Assembly: GCA_013540605.1 (NCBI GenBank)
Contig: JABVCK010000006.1
Location: 1-64,000, forward strand
Length of the DNA: 64,000 nucleotides
Direction: 5' to 3'
DNA from: Bacillota bacterium
GTDB taxonomy: Bacteria; Bacillota; Clostridia; Ch29
Under the pieces are notes generated by a model. That model saw nothing but the letters and a program-made list of their open reading frames with translations. It did not search any database and was not told the origin of the DNA. The stretch's first letter is position 1; each line of letters begins with the position of its first letter. Both the position numbers and the translations under genes were made by a program. Shown piece after piece: positions 93 through 61,991 of the stretch.

Positions 93-128
93 TAACAGTA
101 GCCCACCCTTAAGGGTGGGCTACTGTTA
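93..128. repeat. Perfect 36-bp palindrome after the 5S gene
   Basis: Two 18-base arms are perfectly self-complementary with no loop bases, centred on CCCACCCTTAAGGGTGGG. No T-run follows, so a classical terminator is uncertain, although ending the rRNA transcript is plausible. The same core recurs at 44211-44238, and related hairpins occur at 51305-51332 and 33473-33494. It is therefore a dispersed palindrome family. Confidence 0.8.
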
Positions 129-133
129 TATTC

Positions 134-182
134 TGCGAACTGCGAACTGCGATCTGTATTCTGCGAACTACGAACTAGCACC
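134..182. repeat. Heptad array A (right-arm type)
   Basis: Seven contiguous 7-base units follow each other without indels: TGCGAAC twice, TGCGATC, TGTATTC, TGCGAAC, TACGAAC and TAGCACC. This is the right-arm half of the heptad family described at 15646-15975. Its last base is the first base of the chemoreceptor stop codon (read on the minus strand). No left arm is present. Confidence 0.85.
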
Positions 183-1822
183 TATCCGATAAGCAGGTCT
201 GCCATCAATACACCGGCAGGCTTTCCTTCCCTCTTAAGCGGAACTGCGATGTTGATGCAGTAATTTTTTGATGTGGATATATAGGGTTCCGACACCGAAA
301 CCCTGCCCTCCATACATTCTTTATAATAGGGCCGGAAGGAAAAATCTTTGCCCACTTCCGACCTTGCGGTTGCCGCTACCGTGATACCATCCCTGTTCAG
401 TATGCCGAAATATTCCAGATAATCCTTTTCCATAAGGAGCGAGTCGAGTTTCGGCGTATCGGCTGCCGAGATGGAAAACATTGCGGCATCTCCCGCATAT
501 CCCTCAAGCATCTTTATCGTATTGTTTATCAGCTCTTTTTCTCTATCGCCGACCTGGTACGCCTTTGAAAAATCCTTCGCAACCAACGTCACTTCCTTTG
601 CAATATCGACCATTTTATTTACGCCCGCAGCAATTTCGTTGATTGAGGCGGCCTGTTCCTCCGTTGAGGCGGACACTTCTTGGGTATTGGCTGAAAACTC
701 CTGGACTATTGAAAGAAGCTGTTCCATAGTTTCGTTGATATCTTCAACGAGTATTGATTCATTGGTTGCAAACTCCAGTATTTCCTTGATTGAAGCATCG
801 GTTTTGCTTGAGATATCGAGTATCTGATCAAAGGTTCCTCGGCTGTGACGGGCGAAGTCAAGGGACTCTTTAACTGACTTCGATTGGTTTTGGGTTATGA
901 GGGAGAGCCTTTGTACCGAACCGGTGATCTGATCCACCAGAGACCTGATATTATCCGCCGAGGTTGAGGATTGATGGGCGAGTTTTCTTACCTCTTCCGC
1001 TACCACGGCAAAACCCCTTCCCTGTTCACCGGCCCTTGCTGCTTCAATGGCTGCGTTTAAAGCAAGCAGGTTGGTCTGGTCACTGATATCCTTAACCATT
1101 TGAGAAATATTGCCTATGTCCATCGCCTTCTTATTCAGCTCCTGCACCTGGCTGATCAGTTCGTTATCCTTTTCGCTGCTGGCCTCCATAATATTAATCA
1201 GCCTGCCTAAAGCGGAAAAAAACTCCTGTATGACTTTCACCATATGTTCTCCCAGTTCCTTAGACGCAGCGGCCCTTTCTTTAACACTGCCTGACGATCT
1301 CCTTATGGTTTCGGTTTTTTGTTTAGTTTCATTAATGAACTGGGATTGGGTTACCAAACCTTCTGCAATTTCAGAAACTGTCCGGGCGATTTCTTCCGAT
1401 GCAGTATTTATTTCGTTTATTGTTGCCGAAAGATTTGAAGTATATGTAAGGTTCTTCTGCGATGATGCAGCAACATCTCCCACAAATCCCCGTATTCGGT
1501 ATATTAGGCTGTTAAGCGCTGTAACCAGTTCTTTATTTGCAGTGTTGTTCACCGGTTTCAAGGTTTTTGTAAGGTCTCCCTCGGTTATCCGTTTAATTGC
1601 GCTTAGCGCTTCGTTAAAAGAGCTGCTGGACTCGTTTTTTCCCAATACAATATAAGAGAAGATTGCAAAACATATTAATAATACTGCAATTTTTAGGAAC
1701 AGGTTCATTTGAGTTCCGGGATTTATATCGCTGTACGGTGATAAGGTTGTACTAACCAGGGCATATTCTAACACAAGAAAAACTGCACATAATAATATTA
1801 TGTATGAGATTTTCTTACCCAT
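182..1822 (-). CDS. Methyl-accepting chemotaxis protein with C-terminal Cache-like domain
   Basis: This 546-residue chemoreceptor probably signals to CheA/CheW. Two membrane segments lie near residues 7-27 and 43-61, with almost no extracellular loop, followed by a HAMP-like linker. The MCP signalling domain spans about 150-420 and carries the conserved hairpin tip with [20 protein letters not shown]. The last ~100 residues resemble the distal half of a Cache/PDC sensor ([27 protein letters not shown]), so sensing would be cytoplasmic. A strong AGGAGGG precedes ATG at 1822. The paralogue at 35731-37434 has the same architecture. No che genes are nearby and the ligand is unknown. Confidence 0.9.
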
Positions 1823-10615: not shown

Positions 10616-10648
10616 GGACACGGGGACAGGTCCCTTGTCCCATTTTTT
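10615..10648 (+). terminator. Terminator after the IclR gene
   Basis: GGGACAcGGGGA pairs with TCCCTTGTCCC and is followed by TTTTTT. It starts on the last base of the IclR stop codon. An identical stem with the same tail occurs at 12633-12667, and the stem occurs again at 44181-44207, so this terminator belongs to a dispersed repeat. Confidence 0.85.
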
Positions 10649-14940: not shown

Positions 14941-14967
14941 CAAGATTATTTGCTGTGGAGGTATGTC

Positions 14968-15657
14968 ATGAAGGGAAAGTTAATAATAATAGAAGCAGGA
15001 GATGCCAGCGGCAAGGCTACCCAAACATTAAAGCTGTATAACAGGCTGAAGGACGAACGGTACAATGTTATGAGGGTAGAGTACCCGAATTATAAAAGCG
15101 ATTCTTCGGCCCTGATCAAGATGTATTTGAACGGTGAGTTCGGCAGCAGGCCGGAGGACGTAAACCCCTATGTAGCCTCAACCTTTTTTGCCGTGGACAG
15201 ATTCGCATCCTATAAAAAGGAATGGGAAGACTTTTACAACGGCGGAGGCATTGTGGTTTCCGACAGGTATACAACATCAAACATGATACATCAGGCAGCA
15301 AAAATCCAGGACAAAAAATTAAGGGACAGCTTTCTCGAATGGCTTTGGAATTTTGAGTTTGAACTGTTTGGTCTGCCGGTGCCGGACTGCGTTGTTTTTC
15401 TGAACATGCCTCCGGAGTTCAGCAGGAAGCTGTTGAAAGAAAGGAACAACAAGTATACCGGTGAAAAGGAAAAGGACATCCATGAGAGCGATCTCCGGTA
15501 CCTGGCCAACTCCTATAACAATGCCCTCGAAATTGCCGATAAATATAATTGGGATGTTGTGGACTGTATCGCTGATGGGATGCTTAGGCCCATAGAGGAC
15601 ATTCACCGGGAGATTTACCGGATTGTAATTGACAGATGCATAGCAAGTGACCAGTGA
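14968..15657 (+). CDS. tmk: Thymidylate kinase-like protein
   Basis: The expected role is phosphorylation of dTMP to dTDP. The protein has 229 residues, with the lid/LID-like segment KYTGEKEKDIHESDLRYL and the DRYTTSNMIHQ motif typical of Tmk. The P-loop reads IEAGDASGKATQ, so the first glycine and the residue after the lysine differ from the canonical EGxDGxGKTTQ. ATG 14968 follows GTGGAGG. The last codons (ASDQ, stop) lie inside heptad array B. It may be a divergent Tmk of Clostridia or a related deoxynucleotide kinase. Its position before yaaR-holB supports tmk. Confidence 0.85.
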   Translation: MKGKLIIIEAGDASGKATQTLKLYNRLKDERYNVMRVEYPNYKSDSSALIKMYLNGEFGSRPEDVNPYVASTFFAVDRFASYKKEWEDFYNGGGIVVSDRYTTSNMIHQAAKIQDKKLRDSFLEWLWNFEFELFGLPVPDCVVFLNMPPEFSRKLLKERNNKYTGEKEKDIHESDLRYLANSYNNALEIADKYNWDVVDCIADGMLRPIEDIHREIYRIVIDRCIASDQ

Positions 15658-15975
15658 ACAGTGGTTAGTTAACAGTTGTCAGATATTAGTCGGCAGTTGG
15701 CAGTTGACAGATGACAGTCGGCAGATGGCAGATGGCAGACGTTAGAAATCAGTTGACAGTTGTCAGATCACAGATGACAGACGCCAGGGCAGGGTTTTAC
15801 AGTAATACTCCAAAGGTCTACTCAGGTACCTGTGAACTGTGAACTGTGATCTAGCCCCTGCGATCTGCGATCTGCGATCTGCCGTCTGCGATCTATAACT
15901 ACGAACTACCAACTACGAACTACGAACTAACTGGTACCTGTGAACTGTGATCTGTGATCTATTACCCAGCACCTG
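15646..15975. repeat. Heptad array B (largest copy, two arms)
   Basis: The left arm has 20 uninterrupted 7-base units from 15646 to 15785, all beginning AG (for example AGTTGAC, AGATGGC, AGTCGGC). A core of about 45 bases begins AGGGCAGGGTTTTAC. The right arm has 14 uninterrupted units from 15831 to 15928 (TGTGAAC, TGCGATC, ACGAACT) plus a shorter block ending AGCACCTGCG next to the yaaR Shine-Dalgarno. Reverse-complemented left units read TGYCAWC and right units TGYGAWC, so the arms are nearly complementary. The array fills the whole tmk-yaaR gap. The tmk stop codon lies in the second unit. Confidence 0.9.
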
Positions 15976-15993
15976 CGTACTGGAGGTAATCCT

Positions 15994-27680: not shown

Positions 27681-27720
27681 ATGTTTTAAATGAGCTATGC
27701 TATACATTAAGGCAGAGTAT

Positions 27721-27883
27721 AGTTACCAGTTAACAGATGACAGACGTCAGGGAAGTGCTTATGGGAAAAATTAAAAGACACAACCCAGATACCCGTGATC
27801 TGTGAACTGTGACCTGTAAACTACGAACTACGAACTACGAACTACGAACTGATATCTGGCACCTGCGAACTAGAAACTGAAAA
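27721..27883. repeat. Heptad array C
   Basis: The left arm AGTTACC, AGTTAAC, AGATGAC, AGACGTC leads into the core AGGGAAGTGCTTATGGG. The right arm has 12 contiguous heptads (TGTGAAC, TACGAAC four times, TGATATC, TGGCACC and others). It lies in the metG leader upstream of the T-box. Confidence 0.85.
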
Positions 27884-27884
27884 C

Positions 27885-30242
<2,358 letters not shown>

Positions 30243-31038: not shown

Positions 31039-31052
31039 ATCCCTTGTAGCTT

Positions 31053-31209
31053 CAGTTACCAGTTACCAGATGGCAGTCGCCAGTTGGCAGACGCCAGAAA
31101 TTCAGTTACCAGTTGCCAGTTATCAGATGTAACAACTACGAACTACGAACTACCAACTACGATCTGTGATCTGTGAACTAGTACCTAGTACCTAGTACCT
31201 AGCACCTGC
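31053..31209. repeat. Heptad array D
   Basis: Left-type units (AGTTACC, AGATGGC, AGTCGCC, AGTTGGC, AGACGCC) form two blocks. They are joined directly to right-type units (TACGAAC, TACCAAC, TGTGATC, TAGTACC three times, TAGCACC). The usual core is missing. The right end AGCACCTGC lies 3 bases before the AGGAGG of the next gene. Confidence 0.88.
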
Positions 31210-31884: not shown

Positions 31885-32256
31885 TTGGATAATAAAAAAG
31901 GCTACAGGGGAGAAATGCCGGTCATGGGGCCCACTCCTATTATAGCGTCCGCTCCGGGAATGGGACCTTGTCCGGGAATGGGGCCGGTCGTAGCACCCGC
32001 TCCGGGAATGGGACCCTGCCCGGATATGGGCTATGGAATGCCCATGATGGGACCCTGCCCGGTAATGCAGTGCATGATACACTGCGTGCATTCGATGATG
32101 GGCGGGATGCCAATGCCCATGATGGGTGGAATGCCCATGATGGGTGGAATGTCCATGATGGGTGGAATGCCTGCGATGGGCGGAATGCCCATGATGGGAC
32201 CCGGACCATATACACCATCAATGCCCATGACGGGAGAAACCGAAGAATACAAATAA
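31885..32256 (+). CDS. Met/Gly/Pro-rich repeat protein (possible spore coat protein)
   Basis: I do not recognise a family. The 123-residue product is low-complexity: two PGMGPCPxMGP-type units near residues 23-50, then six to seven GGMPMM-type pentamers from about residue 72 to 105. Cysteines occur at PC motifs and in MQCMIHCVHS. The TTG start at 31885 follows GGGGGGAAT. Proteins of this kind occur as coat or exosporium components in spore formers, and the neighbourhood is rich in spore genes, but that function is inference. Confidence 0.65.
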   Translation: MDNKKGYRGEMPVMGPTPIIASAPGMGPCPGMGPVVAPAPGMGPCPDMGYGMPMMGPCPVMQCMIHCVHSMMGGMPMPMMGGMPMMGGMSMMGGMPAMGGMPMMGPGPYTPSMPMTGETEEYK

Positions 32257-33564: not shown

Positions 33565-34430
33565 AGAATGAAGGATTCACGTATAGCGAAACGCTTGACA
33601 TTCTCAAAAGGCACAATATAACACCGCGCAAGGGTCTTGGACAGAATTTCCTTACCGACAAGAACATATTGTCCAAAATTATTGATGCTGCGGAGCTTGA
33701 GGCTGATGACCAGGTTCTTGAAATCGGACCGGGTATCGGTACATTAACCCGTGAACTGGCTTTGAAATCGGGCAGGGTTGTATGCGTTGAGATAGATGAC
33801 AGGTTGATACCTGTTCTGCAGGATACCACTTCATGCTTTTCCAATATTACGGTAGTTTGCGGAGATATTCTTAAGCTGGACCTGAGCCAACTGTACAGGA
33901 AGCATTTTCAGGACGGGAGAATTAAGGTAGTGGCGAATCTGCCCTATTACATTACTTCTCCGATAGTAATGAAGCTTCTTGAAGAAGAAATCCCCCTCAA
34001 ATCTATCATTATTATGGTTCAGAAGGAGGTTGCCCGGAGGATGGCGGCTTCACCCGGCAATAAGGAGTACGGCGCTCTTTCGGTGGCGGTGCAGTTTTAC
34101 TCAAACCCTGAAATGATTGCATCCGTGCCTCCCACCGTATTCATACCACCGCCCAAGGTCAGTTCGGCAGTGGTGAGGCTTGATATTAAGGAATCCCCCG
34201 GTTATAGGGTTAAGGACACAAGCCTCATGTTTTCCATAGTAAAGGCAGCCTTCGGGAAGAGAAGGAAGACGCTGCTCAACGCCCTTGTAGGAGTCAGGGG
34301 CCTGGAAAACAAGGAGACGGTCAGGGAAGTACTGGAAAGCTGCGGCATAGAACCCGAAAGGCGGGGTGAAACCCTATCCGTTCAGGACTTTTGCAGGCTT
34401 GCCGACTGCGTCTCCGCCAGTGACCATTGA
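33561..34430 (+). CDS. rsmA: 16S rRNA (adenine-1518/1519-N6)-dimethyltransferase
   Basis: RsmA (KsgA) dimethylates two adenines in helix 45 of 16S rRNA during small-subunit assembly. The 289-residue protein has GLGQNFLTDKNIL, the SAM motif VLEIGPGIGTLTRELA, the catalytic NLPYYITSPI and the C-terminal FGKRRKTLLNAL. ATG 33561 has GAAGGAAGCGGG upstream and overlaps the short ORF. The last residues (ASDH, stop) are encoded by the first heptads of array E, much like the ASDQ end of tmk. Confidence 0.97.
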   Translation: MKNEGFTYSETLDILKRHNITPRKGLGQNFLTDKNILSKIIDAAELEADDQVLEIGPGIGTLTRELALKSGRVVCVEIDDRLIPVLQDTTSCFSNITVVCGDILKLDLSQLYRKHFQDGRIKVVANLPYYITSPIVMKLLEEEIPLKSIIIMVQKEVARRMAASPGNKEYGALSVAVQFYSNPEMIASVPPTVFIPPPKVSSAVVRLDIKESPGYRVKDTSLMFSIVKAAFGKRRKTLLNALVGVRGLENKETVREVLESCGIEPERRGETLSVQDFCRLADCVSASDH

Positions 34431-34576
34431 CCAGAGGTCAGATGGCAGTCGGCAGTTGGCAGACGCCAGGGCAAGGCTATAGGGTAAAACCCAAAAGCAT
34501 AACCCGAATGCGTGTGATCTGTGATCTAGCCCCTAGTACCTGTGATCTACGAACTACCAACTACGAACTACCAACC
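34419..34576. repeat. Heptad array E
   Basis: Seven left heptads (AGTGACC, ATTGACC, AGAGGTC, AGATGGC, AGTCGGC, AGTTGGC, AGACGCC) start inside rsmA and include its stop codon. The core AGGGCAAGGCTATAGGG and its partner region follow, then right units (TGTGATC, TAGCCCC, TACGAAC, TACCAAC). Confidence 0.9.
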
Positions 34577-34648
34577 AAAAAGTTGTAACTAATACTCCCA
34601 TGCTGAATATATTGATAGCATAAGCACTTTTGTATGGGGGAGGAAAAC

Positions 34649-55613: not shown

Positions 55614-55689
55614 AGTCGGCAGTTATCAGTTACCAGTGGTCAGTGGTCAGTGACTAGCACCTGCGATCTGCGATCTGCCGACTGCGATC
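55614..55689. repeat. Heptad array F (arms abutting, no core)
   Basis: Six left heptads (AGTCGGC, AGTTATC, AGTTACC, AGTGGTC twice, AGTGACT) join via AGCACC to four right heptads (TGCGATC twice, TGCCGAC, TGCGATC). The array ends 14 bases before the spoIIR ribosome site. Confidence 0.88.
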
Positions 55690-55715
55690 TATATTTTATT
55701 ACGAGGGTGATAAAT

Positions 55716-56533: not shown

Positions 56534-56601
56534 GGGGACACACCTCCTATCAGTGGTCAGTGGCTAGCATCTAGGACCTAGCACCTTGAAGGAATGTCCC
56601 C
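56534..56601. repeat. Hairpin element carrying a heptad array in its loop
   Basis: The outer arms GGGGACACACCTCCT (56534) and GGAATGTCCCC (ending 56601) are the hairpin family in reverse orientation. In place of the usual loop are five heptads at 56552-56586: AGTGGTC, AGTGGCT, AGCATCT, AGGACCT, AGCACCT. Confidence 0.8.
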
Positions 56602-56625: not shown

Positions 56626-58095
56626 ATGAAAAACAGCGTACAGAACGCGCAAAACAGAGCGCCGCTGTTTGAAGCACTAAAGGACTATCATTCCAGGGGA
56701 GTAATACCCTTCGACGTTCCGGGGCACAAGCACGGCGTAGGGCTGCCCGAATTAGCGGAATATGTGGGCAGAAAGGTGCTTGAGATCGATGTCAACGCAA
56801 TGGAATGTCTTGATAATATATGCAACCCCATCGGGGTAATCAAGGAAGCGGAAGAACTGGCTGCGCGGGCATACGGCGCAACCAACGCTTTTTTTCTTGT
56901 CAATGGTACCACCTCCGGTGTACAGGCCATGATTATGGCGGCCTGCAGACCCGGAGATAAGATTATACTGCCCCGCAATGCGCACAAATCGGCTATTGCG
57001 GGATTGATACTCAGCGGGGCCGTTCCAATCTATATACAGCCTGAGATAGACGAGGACCTGGGTATTGCCATGGGAGTTTCAGCCGACAGCGTGAAACAGG
57101 CCATTGAGCAGTACCCGGACGCCAAGGCTATATTTATAATACACCCTACCTATTATGGCGCGGTATCGGATTTATCCTCCGTGATAGAATTGGCCAGGGA
57201 ATATGAAATGGTGGTCCTGGCGGACGAAGCCCATGGGGCCCACTTTCCCTTTCATCCCGAGCTTCCGGCAGGAGCCATGCGGCTCGGAGCGGACGCCAGC
57301 GCCGTCAGCACCCACAAAACAGGGGGGTCCCTGACACAAAGCTCTCTTCTGCTTTTGAACGACAGCATACTGGATGCCGACTACATGAAGACTACGCTGA
57401 ATCTCACCCAGACCACGAGCGCGTCCTATCTCCTGATGACATCGGTGGATATAGCGAGGAAGCAGCTGGCCACCAGGGGCGAGGCCATACTCTCGGAGGT
57501 GCTTGGGTACGTTAGGTGGGCTAGGGATGAAATAAACAAGGTGGACGGGCTCTATGCCTTCGGCAAGGAACTGGTGGGATCGCCGGGGGTATTTGATTTC
57601 GACGAGACAAAGCTGGGGGTAAACGTCAGAGGGCTCGGCCTTTCCGGCTATGAAGCGGAAAAGATACTCAGGCGTGAGTACAATATACAGGTTGAGCTTG
57701 CGGACATGTACAACATCCTTGCAATAGCTGCGGTCGGGGACACGCAGAGGTCGGTCGAAGCCCTGGTGGACGCCATCAGGGATATGGCCGGGAAATACAG
57801 GAACGGCCATGTAAGAAGGATTACCAGGGCTATGCTGAAAAACCCTGAAATCATAGTATCCCCGAGGGATGCGTACTACAGCAGCAAAAAGTCGGTTGCG
57901 CTGGAGGAAGCGGTGGGCTCGGTAAGCGGGGAGAGCATAATGGCATATCCTCCCGGAATACCGGTGGTAACGCCCGGTGAAATGATTACAGCCGAGATTG
58001 TCGAGTATGTAAAGCTGCTTAAGGCTGAGAACTGCATGCTGCAGGGCACCCAGGACCCCTATGTGAACAGGATACTGGTGCTCGGCCGTGAGTAA
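56626..58095 (+). CDS. Orn/Lys/Arg decarboxylase family protein
   Basis: This PLP-dependent decarboxylase of 489 residues is paralogous to 13510-14940. It has IPFDVPGHKHGVGLPEL, YGATNAFFLVNGTTSGVQAM, the PLP aspartate in VVLADEAHGAHFPF, the Schiff-base lysine in VSTHKTGGSLTQSS and the C-terminal IMAYPPGIPVVTPGEM. ATG 56626 follows GGGGGAGG. It makes a polyamine from a basic amino acid; arginine would fit the arginine-rich context, but the substrate is not determined. Heptad array H starts four bases after the stop. Confidence 0.92.
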   Translation: MKNSVQNAQNRAPLFEALKDYHSRGVIPFDVPGHKHGVGLPELAEYVGRKVLEIDVNAMECLDNICNPIGVIKEAEELAARAYGATNAFFLVNGTTSGVQAMIMAACRPGDKIILPRNAHKSAIAGLILSGAVPIYIQPEIDEDLGIAMGVSADSVKQAIEQYPDAKAIFIIHPTYYGAVSDLSSVIELAREYEMVVLADEAHGAHFPFHPELPAGAMRLGADASAVSTHKTGGSLTQSSLLLLNDSILDADYMKTTLNLTQTTSASYLLMTSVDIARKQLATRGEAILSEVLGYVRWARDEINKVDGLYAFGKELVGSPGVFDFDETKLGVNVRGLGLSGYEAEKILRREYNIQVELADMYNILAIAAVGDTQRSVEALVDAIRDMAGKYRNGHVRRITRAMLKNPEIIVSPRDAYYSSKKSVALEEAVGSVSGESIMAYPPGIPVVTPGEMITAEIVEYVKLLKAENCMLQGTQDPYVNRILVLGRE

Positions 58096-58098
58096 ACC

Positions 58099-58280
58099 AG
58101 TGGCCAGTGACTAGTTATCAGTTCCCAGATGCCAGTTGCCAGTACATAGGGTAGTGCTTAATGGAAAAGGCTTATAAGACTAACCCTAGAGACTGAGAAC
58201 TGATAACTGGGAACTAGAAACTGAATTTTTGCATCTGCGATCTGCTAACTACGAACTACCAACTACGAACTACGAACTAT
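58099..58280. repeat. Heptad array H
   Basis: Seven left heptads (AGTGGCC, AGTGACT, AGTTATC, AGTTCCC, AGATGCC, AGTTGCC, AGTACAT), a core AGGGTAGTGCTTAATGG, then two right blocks (TGAGAAC, TGATAAC, TGGGAAC, TAGAAAC; and TGCGATC, TGCTAAC, TACGAAC repeats). The right end overlaps the 3' end of the minus-strand glycosyltransferase gene and encodes its last four residues and stop. Confidence 0.9.
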
Positions 58281-59381
58281 ATCAATGAACAAATTGCATA
58301 TATCCCTGGTGGAGTGAGGCTTTGCCTTGCTCCCCGCGATTTCCTTCATATGACTCAACCGGACAGGTGAGTCCAGAAGCTGTCGTATAACTCCCTCCAC
58401 ATAGTCCTTGCTTTTAAACCTGATTGCCATACCGCTGTTCATCAGGTACTGGGCATTTCTTTCCTCCTGGCCCGGTATAGGTGAAATAATTGCGATGGGA
58501 AGTCTCATCGCCATAGCCTCGCTTATAGTAAGGCCTCCTGGTTTTGTAATCAATAGGTCGGATGCCGCCATTACCTTTGGTATATCCTCGGTATAACCCA
58601 GTATTACGCTGGGCTTGGATGACGGTGGGGCTATCGACTGGAGGGCATCCCTCAGCCTCCTGTTTTTCCCGCACACCACAATTATCTGGATATCAAGGGA
58701 ACTCCGAATGAGGCTCTTGAACACCTCTTTGACTTCCCCCATGCCGAGGCTTCCTCCCATGATCAAAAGGGTTGTCCTGTTTACATCGAGACCCAGAGAA
58801 GCTCTGACCTGCGCAGTATCATAGCTTTGGGCAAAGCCCTCATCTATGGGAATGCCCAGGGGGTATATCCTTCTCCTGTCCACACCCTTCCATTCCATCT
58901 CATAAATCAGGTCTTCATTTGCAATAATATAGAAATCCACTCCGTCCCTGATCCAGAAACTGTGGGGCGCGTAGTCGGTCAGCAGGGACACAACCCTGCA
59001 GGCAAGGTTGTTTTTGCGTTTAAGGTAGCATATCACCTCAAGGGGAAAGGGGTGTGTGCAGACCACTATCTTTGGGTTCCTGCTGTGAAGCAGGCCTTCC
59101 ATCTTCAGCGCCAGCAGGCGGTTTATTGTAAGGCTGATATCCGAGATGCCTTCCTCCTTTTCAGCCATATTGTAAAGCTTTTCGTAAAGGGTGGGACTCG
59201 CCTTTAAAGTTCCTATATATCCCCCTATTACCACCTTATCCACAACGGGATTTATATATTTTAGCCAGTCAATTATTTCTATGTCTATATTTTTTTCCAG
59301 GGATTCCATGGACTTCTTTATCACCTGGGCGGCTTTAATATGGCCTCCGCCCGCCGATACCGAGAGAATCAACACATCCAT
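58263..59381 (-). CDS. MGDG synthase-like glycosyltransferase (GT28)
   Basis: This 372-residue glycosyltransferase of the MurG/UgtP/MGDG-synthase group transfers sugar from a UDP-sugar, probably to diacylglycerol or another lipid. It has the N-terminal ILSVSAGGGHIKAAQVI, CTHPFPLEVICYL, LLTDYAPHSFWI, and the C-terminal donor site LLIMGGSLGMG, ITKPGGLTISEAMAM and PIPGQEERNAQYL. ATG 59381 follows GGAGGC and gives the family start MDVLILSVSAGGGH. The final VRSS and stop are encoded by heptad repeats. The gene is divergent from sleB. Confidence 0.9.
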   Translation of the reverse strand: MDVLILSVSAGGGHIKAAQVIKKSMESLEKNIDIEIIDWLKYINPVVDKVVIGGYIGTLKASPTLYEKLYNMAEKEEGISDISLTINRLLALKMEGLLHSRNPKIVVCTHPFPLEVICYLKRKNNLACRVVSLLTDYAPHSFWIRDGVDFYIIANEDLIYEMEWKGVDRRRIYPLGIPIDEGFAQSYDTAQVRASLGLDVNRTTLLIMGGSLGMGEVKEVFKSLIRSSLDIQIIVVCGKNRRLRDALQSIAPPSSKPSVILGYTEDIPKVMAASDLLITKPGGLTISEAMAMRLPIAIISPIPGQEERNAQYLMNSGMAIRFKSKDYVEGVIRQLLDSPVRLSHMKEIAGSKAKPHSTRDICNLFIDIVRSS

Positions 59382-61931: not shown

Positions 61932-61941
61932 TTTGAAAATC

Positions 61942-61991
61942 TGCGGTCTGCCGACTGCGATCTGCGAACTAGCCTTGAATGAATGTCCCCA
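61942..61991. repeat. Heptad array I joined to a hairpin-family end
   Basis: Five right-type heptads (TGCGGTC, TGCCGAC, TGCGATC, TGCGAAC, TAGCCTT) at 61942-61976 run straight into GAATGAATGTCCCC, the same junction type as at 56586-56601. No left half is present. Confidence 0.75.

Follow-up and report, generated by a model that had tools for sequence, protein, structure and literature searches.

Seven-base repeat arrays in a Clostridia genome as probable copies of a short insertion element with a common core and hairpin ends

The arrays of 7-nt units dispersed between the genes of the window (the whole 64,000-nt stretch analysed here; array coordinates refer to its forward strand) are probably whole, truncated or overgrown copies of a short non-autonomous, MITE/REPIN-like insertion element, whose arms later changed in 7-nt steps. 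Heptameric repeat arrays, inverted pairs included, are already known; what is new here is that the heptad arrays form part of an element that inserts and has its own core and ends, and the dispersal and insertion of the core-bearing copies are demonstrated. The initial annotation had proposed a two-armed family in a 7-nt register, with an AGGG core, inverted arms and a parallel in the STRR repeats, all of which stood, and a folding of the arms on each other, which was not supported for the single loci; to this is now added that the arrays make up the interior of insertion elements, which possess hairpin ends and a defined core, and that the orthologous sites are empty. The excess of heptamer repeats in bacteria is a decades-old observation that, to our knowledge, has lacked a mechanism, and the element may help to explain the seven-base repeat arrays of many unrelated bacteria. 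Since the arrays of this genome are linked to a compact insertion element, for which ends, a core and empty sites are described, the question becomes testable.

The 7-nt register is strict. When the whole window was scanned at lags 3 to 15, a score of 28 or more matches out of 42 was reached at 369 positions for lag 7, at 120 for lag 14 and at none for the other lags, with the Markov controls at lag 7 reaching 22-26 at most. The largest array, whose sequence was checked at 15646-15977, is built as first described, from a left arm of 20 YAGNNNN heptads (15646..15785; lag scan and array census), a degenerate core (AGGGCAGGG..., 15785..15830, aligned with 31 other cores, A1) and a right arm (15831..15975) with 14 CTR heptads to 15928 and, beyond them, another short run reaching about 15963; the tmk-like ORF (14950-15657) has its stop codon within the first left-arm units. 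The array positions listed at the outset were recovered at 134, 15646, 27721, 31053, 34419, 55614, 56552 and 58099, while that at 61942 is weak, being a short imperfect array of 29 bp with 16% indels (61939..61967, TRF alone). They include a right-arm type array directly after a perfect hairpin (126..188; lag scan and array census), an array between the spore_GerAC and spoIIR genes (55616..55690), absent in the relative G003, and a two-armed array (58092..58290) with its core at 58148-58187.

The enrichment extends over the genome, where the right-arm word CTACGAACTACSAACTAC gave 260 matches with at most 2 mismatches and its reversed control gave none. In 857 kb of sampled sequence, partly picked at pattern hits, 91 arrays cover 12,013 bp; the unbiased part, which comprises the window and 300 kb of contig C1 (364 kb together), contains 27 arrays, which extrapolates from the sampled stretches to about 250 per genome. 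Head-to-tail 7-nt units thus make up many dispersed intergenic arrays, as in other heptameric repeats, with 92% of the array bases outside ORFs by simple ORF calls. No orientation relative to the genes is preferred (34 and 24 arrays in tandem, 10 convergent and 10 divergent). The genes beside the arrays encode sporulation proteins or are metG with its T-box, ksgA and the tmk-like gene, and together they point to a spore-forming member of Clostridia.

Left units follow YAGNNNN (CAGTTAT, the commonest of the CAG type, CAGTTGC, CAGATGA, CAGTGAC and others) and right units CTRNNNN (CTACGAA, CTGTGAT, CTGCGAT, CTACCAA, CTAGCAC and others). Among neighbouring runs at most 160 nt apart, the order YAG-then-CTR was found 51 times and the reverse once, so that the arms of this two-armed family converge with a fixed, almost absolute polarity. 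They are also inverted, the left arm scoring 14.9 against the reverse complement of the right arm and the Markov null 7.8. However, the arms of one locus match each other no better than they match the right arms of other loci (permutation p=0.14), and the complementarity therefore belongs to the family as a whole and is not upheld within each copy; arm-to-arm coevolution was rejected on the same test. Folding of the arms at each locus was likewise not supported, the ssDNA folding of 15750-15870 being average (z=-0.04) and the core showing almost no RNA covariation. Defined TAG/CTA terminal units common to all species were also considered and rejected, the excess being weak (48% vs 40% in this genome, 62% vs 43% in others).

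Between the arms of many copies there is a core of about 41 nt, occurring in three related types, while many arrays have no core. The sequence-only core model R1 gave 59 copies of the shared AGGG core in this genome, two in G001 and two in G003 at E<=0.01, and none in ten other genomes searched, including G305, which is rich in arrays but unrelated. Of the Rfam families, the T-box alone was matched over the window, and the core was left unmatched. The consensus RNA fold of the core is weak (-0.39 kcal/mol, 3 pairs by RNAalifold), and a conserved RNA hairpin was rejected on these 3 pairs, with single ssDNA folds reaching z=-3.2 at best.

Hairpin ends of the form GGGGACA...TGTCCCC were found within 220 nt on both sides of 11 of the 58 cores and on one side of 16, the other 31 having none within this distance. 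Six of the 11 two-ended copies are compact elements of 139-147 nt that can be aligned over their full length, some of their internal gaps being exactly 7; their layout consists of the GGGGACACACC end, about five YAGNNNN heptads, the core of about 41 nt (AGGGNAANGCTAAAGGGNAAAAACCTAAAAGCCTAACCC), about five NNNNCTR heptads and the GGAATGTCCCC end. The left end with its first heptads (GGGGACACACCNNNNATYAGTTRCCAGT) recurs at 23 places with at most 3 mismatches, its control at none. The smallest hairpin-bounded copy, of 68 nt (56534..56601), is made of GGGGACACACC, heptads and GGAATGTCCCC. The same hairpins occur also without heptads, for instance as three tandem 57-nt repeats at 28139..28305, each carrying a heptad-free GGGGACATTCC...GGTGTGTCCCC hairpin with the ends that bound some of the arrays. 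Motifs resembling hairpins accompany 21 of 91 arrays, compared with 18 of 225 array-free spacers. Thus, the description of a MITE (short, non-coding, with inverted terminal repeats and many dispersed copies) suits a subset of the copies only, and that of a REPIN, in which two inverted REP hairpins form a dispersed unit, suits both the heptad-free and the array-bearing GGGGACA...TGTCCCC units. The three tandem repeats are situated between the metG T-box (27880-28114, Rfam match) and the likely metG start; the start of the ORF called from 28101 is probably too early, as the homology of the relatives begins only near its residue 76.

The insertion of the copies is seen at orthologous loci, whose comparison had been suggested at the outset and for which the regions were taken from four family-level relatives (two marker proteins are 51-64% identical), a distance at which most spacers do not align. 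At the array sites of the window, the array was absent from the relative in 14 of 14 ortholog comparisons, with a median spacer of 299 bp here vs 48 bp in the relatives, which carry arrays at other sites. The tmk|yaaR spacer has 336 bp here vs 29-33 bp without an array in G002 and G003, while G001 has a different gap of 1.6 kb. The array at 34424..34578 (core 34468-34506) lies in the last ksgA codons, and the spacer between ksgA and the next gene has 203 bp here vs 41-49 bp, array-free, in the four relatives; as the ksgA of the relatives reads through to a stop that lies beyond the array here, the copy has broken into the final ksgA codons. The TatD|radical SAM spacer, whose array (31052..31207) separates a -10-like TATAAT from the ribosome-binding site of the radical SAM gene, has 193 bp here vs 46 bp, array-free, in G003. 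In the metG leader, the region before the T-box is split by an array (27714..27880; core 27749-27787 by model R1) that follows the promoter region, and the leaders of G002, G003 and G005 carry none. The insertion boundaries could be located at ksgA and in the metG leader, and fairly closely in the radical SAM spacer. In one case another genus has the insertion too, since L215 of G001 and L099:15531 of this genome agree in their left boundary and in their flanking genes; the copy is longer here, and the gaps between the two total 101 nt, the first being of exactly 35 nt (5 heptads).

Neighbouring heptads are more alike than distant ones, the similarity falling to background by lag 3-4, which means that growth in place clearly contributes, and ordered trios of heptads are common to different loci (13 vs 1.5 expected in left arms, 31 vs 15 in right arms). 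The perfect (CTGTCAT)n arrays beside an SNF2-related gene in three near-identical Aeromonas salmonicida plasmids (L182:8041-8224, L184:16390-16510 and L187:26935-27104) occupy regions of 184, 121 and 170 bp, differing by whole units; being single-armed and coreless, they demonstrate the 7-nt step and not the element. Whole-unit changes of copy number are represented by these plasmids and, in the present family, by the 35-nt gap at the shared site and some 7-nt gaps among the compact copies. Each copy would have been mobilised as one unit, probably in the form of a single-stranded hairpin on which a transposase acted in trans, a route suggested by the lack of target-site duplication beside the hairpin ends of the 11 composite copies (6 nt each side, by eye). 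After insertion, the arms would gain or lose whole heptads through slipped pairing or recombination between copies, and long arrays of drifting sequence may result. The arrays can be accounted for without a host function.

As to the mobilising enzyme, the IS200 copies examined in this genome, the one transposon family so compared, have ends different from those of the element, and the RAYT-like gene at G000:C15:16876 is flanked by GGGGACGGTTC/GAACCGTCCCC and not by GGGGACACACC, so that it lacks the REP that the RAYT of a REPIN would share with it. The Y1 transposase was rejected as a candidate, as it occurs also in relatives without the arm pattern and does not track the arrays. A dependence on reverse transcriptase was rejected because the array-bearing G002, G003 and G004 have no RVT_1 match, and a phage origin because there were no matches among 50,697 phage records.

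Were the arrays microsatellites of the STRR type, each grown in place by 7-nt polymerase slippage without transposition, the whole-unit polymorphism of the near-identical plasmids and the decay of neighbour-unit similarity would be expected, and heptamer abundance was indeed ascribed to polymerase slippage in a 2007 proposal, cited by Rehm et al. (PMC4692102). However, independent growth would not give a non-periodic core at 59 places, common ends, a conserved heptad order and a near-constant polarity, and slippage alone fails to explain inverted arms, common cores and patchy bursts in unrelated genomes; it is thus disfavoured for the core-bearing copies and unlikely as an account of the whole, while the core-free single-arm arrays could have originated by it. 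It is improbable, to a still greater degree, that the arrays are selected regulatory elements through which translation is controlled by a protein or RNA bound to the repeats in mRNA leaders, in the manner suggested for the TAACTGA repeats of Beggiatoaceae (PMC4679880), which are the opposite strand of CAGTTAT. Some copies are indeed situated in leaders, either downstream of a promoter-like -10 and upstream of the ribosome-binding site or ahead of the T-box, but others are found between convergent genes and inside the ksgA 3' end, there is no preferred orientation, the neighbour genes are functionally unrelated, the array sites are empty in relatives and the core is without RNA covariation. 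A regulatory role may hold for individual leader copies, and it leaves the family unexplained.

Very little weight can be given to templated synthesis, in which a reverse-transcriptase or telomerase-like enzyme would add the 7-nt units: it would combine the strict register with sequence drift, and a reverse transcriptase gene is present on an array-bearing Aeromonas plasmid, but the array of the plasmid repeats one unit perfectly, which is what slippage would give, and three genomes have arrays with no RVT_1 match, as stated above. A sequencing or assembly artefact, in favour of which nothing was found, may be practically dismissed, as the arrays recur across many independent assemblies and genomes and the same element occupies the same site in a second genus. 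Neither of the two outcomes named at the outset as overturning the finding, such an artefact or a lack of genome-wide enrichment, thus holds. The reading of the arrays as copies of an inserted element with core and ends is accordingly preferred.

Among the known systems, the STRR repeats of filamentous cyanobacteria (cited in PMC4692102) are tandem heptanucleotides in many copies and are defined as tandem repeats only; the parallel drawn with them at first holds in these respects, whereas a core, arms and evidence of insertion are present here. Elhai and colleagues are said to have described in 2008 the SDR elements of Nostoc, reportedly of 21-27 nt with a conserved fold and often embedded in heptameric repeats. 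The likeness consists in small dispersed non-coding elements within heptad repeats, but the core here has about 41 nt with weak fold support. With REPINs and MITEs the element shares short non-coding copies, dispersed in large number, inverted hairpin ends and empty sites in relatives; it differs in that no matching RAYT or transposase and no target duplication were found, and in its heptad interior of changing length.

In Xanthomonas, about 186 dispersed arrays of GGGAATC per genome, 89-93% of them intergenic, are degenerate at fixed positions and without strand preference, with about 70 inverted arm pairs per genome, and the heptameric repeat of Nostoc is GGGGA(T/C)T (Rehm et al. 2015, PMC4692102). 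These repeats resemble the present ones in being dispersed, mostly intergenic, degenerate, strand-neutral and paired in inversion; their units are G-rich and quadruplex-forming, in contrast to YAGNNNN/NNNNCTR with a common core, and the parts of that account considered here report no shared core, hairpin ends or empty-site comparison (PMC4692102). The TAACTGA direct repeats of marine Beggiatoaceae, Cyanobacteria and Bacteroidetes (MacGregor 2015, PMC4679880) are likewise intergenic, patchy across phyla and mixed with other heptamers, and close relatives may have shorter repeat-free spacers; they mostly comprise 2-6 identical units near start codons, unlike the long drifting two-armed arrays with a core described here, and a mobile carrier was not identified there. 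It would be a rather doubtful extension that heptad-armed insertion elements form a distinct and widespread class of bacterial mobile DNA, in which an unrecognised enzyme mobilises a core flanked by convergent YAG/CTR arms, and that the decay and regrowth of such elements lie behind the long-noted heptamer excess (GGGAATC, TAACTGA, STRR) across phyla.

In the phylum, heptads of the CTRNNAW type were found in 23 of 398 genomes, with 330 in G305, 327 in this genome and few or none in most; a few of the genomes scanned also gave control hits, probably from low-complexity sequence. Converging arms with other units occur in G305, G204, G257 and G085. In G085, rRNA operons carry heptad arms immediately ahead of 16S and in the 23S-5S interval (L132, L133, L134, L149); the paralogous operons, when used as an empty-site test, differed in their arms and gave no clean empty copy. 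Another heptad dialect, (GAGAAGT/GAGAGGT)n, occurs in Clostridiaceae MAGs (L064:7265-7466, L070:7257-7394), with an apparent converging arm also in L070, and on a Pseudomonas silvicola plasmid (L181:1465-1548) (GGATGGC)n turns into (AGATGGC)n beside an IclR-family regulator gene. The window itself has an 18-nt unit, AATGCCCATGATGGGTGG, in 4.8 copies inside a small ORF (32112-32198), and a palindrome, GGGACACGGGGACAGGTCCCTTGTCCC, recurring in spacers at 10622, 12640 and, as a close variant, 44188, which represents a further dispersed hairpin family.
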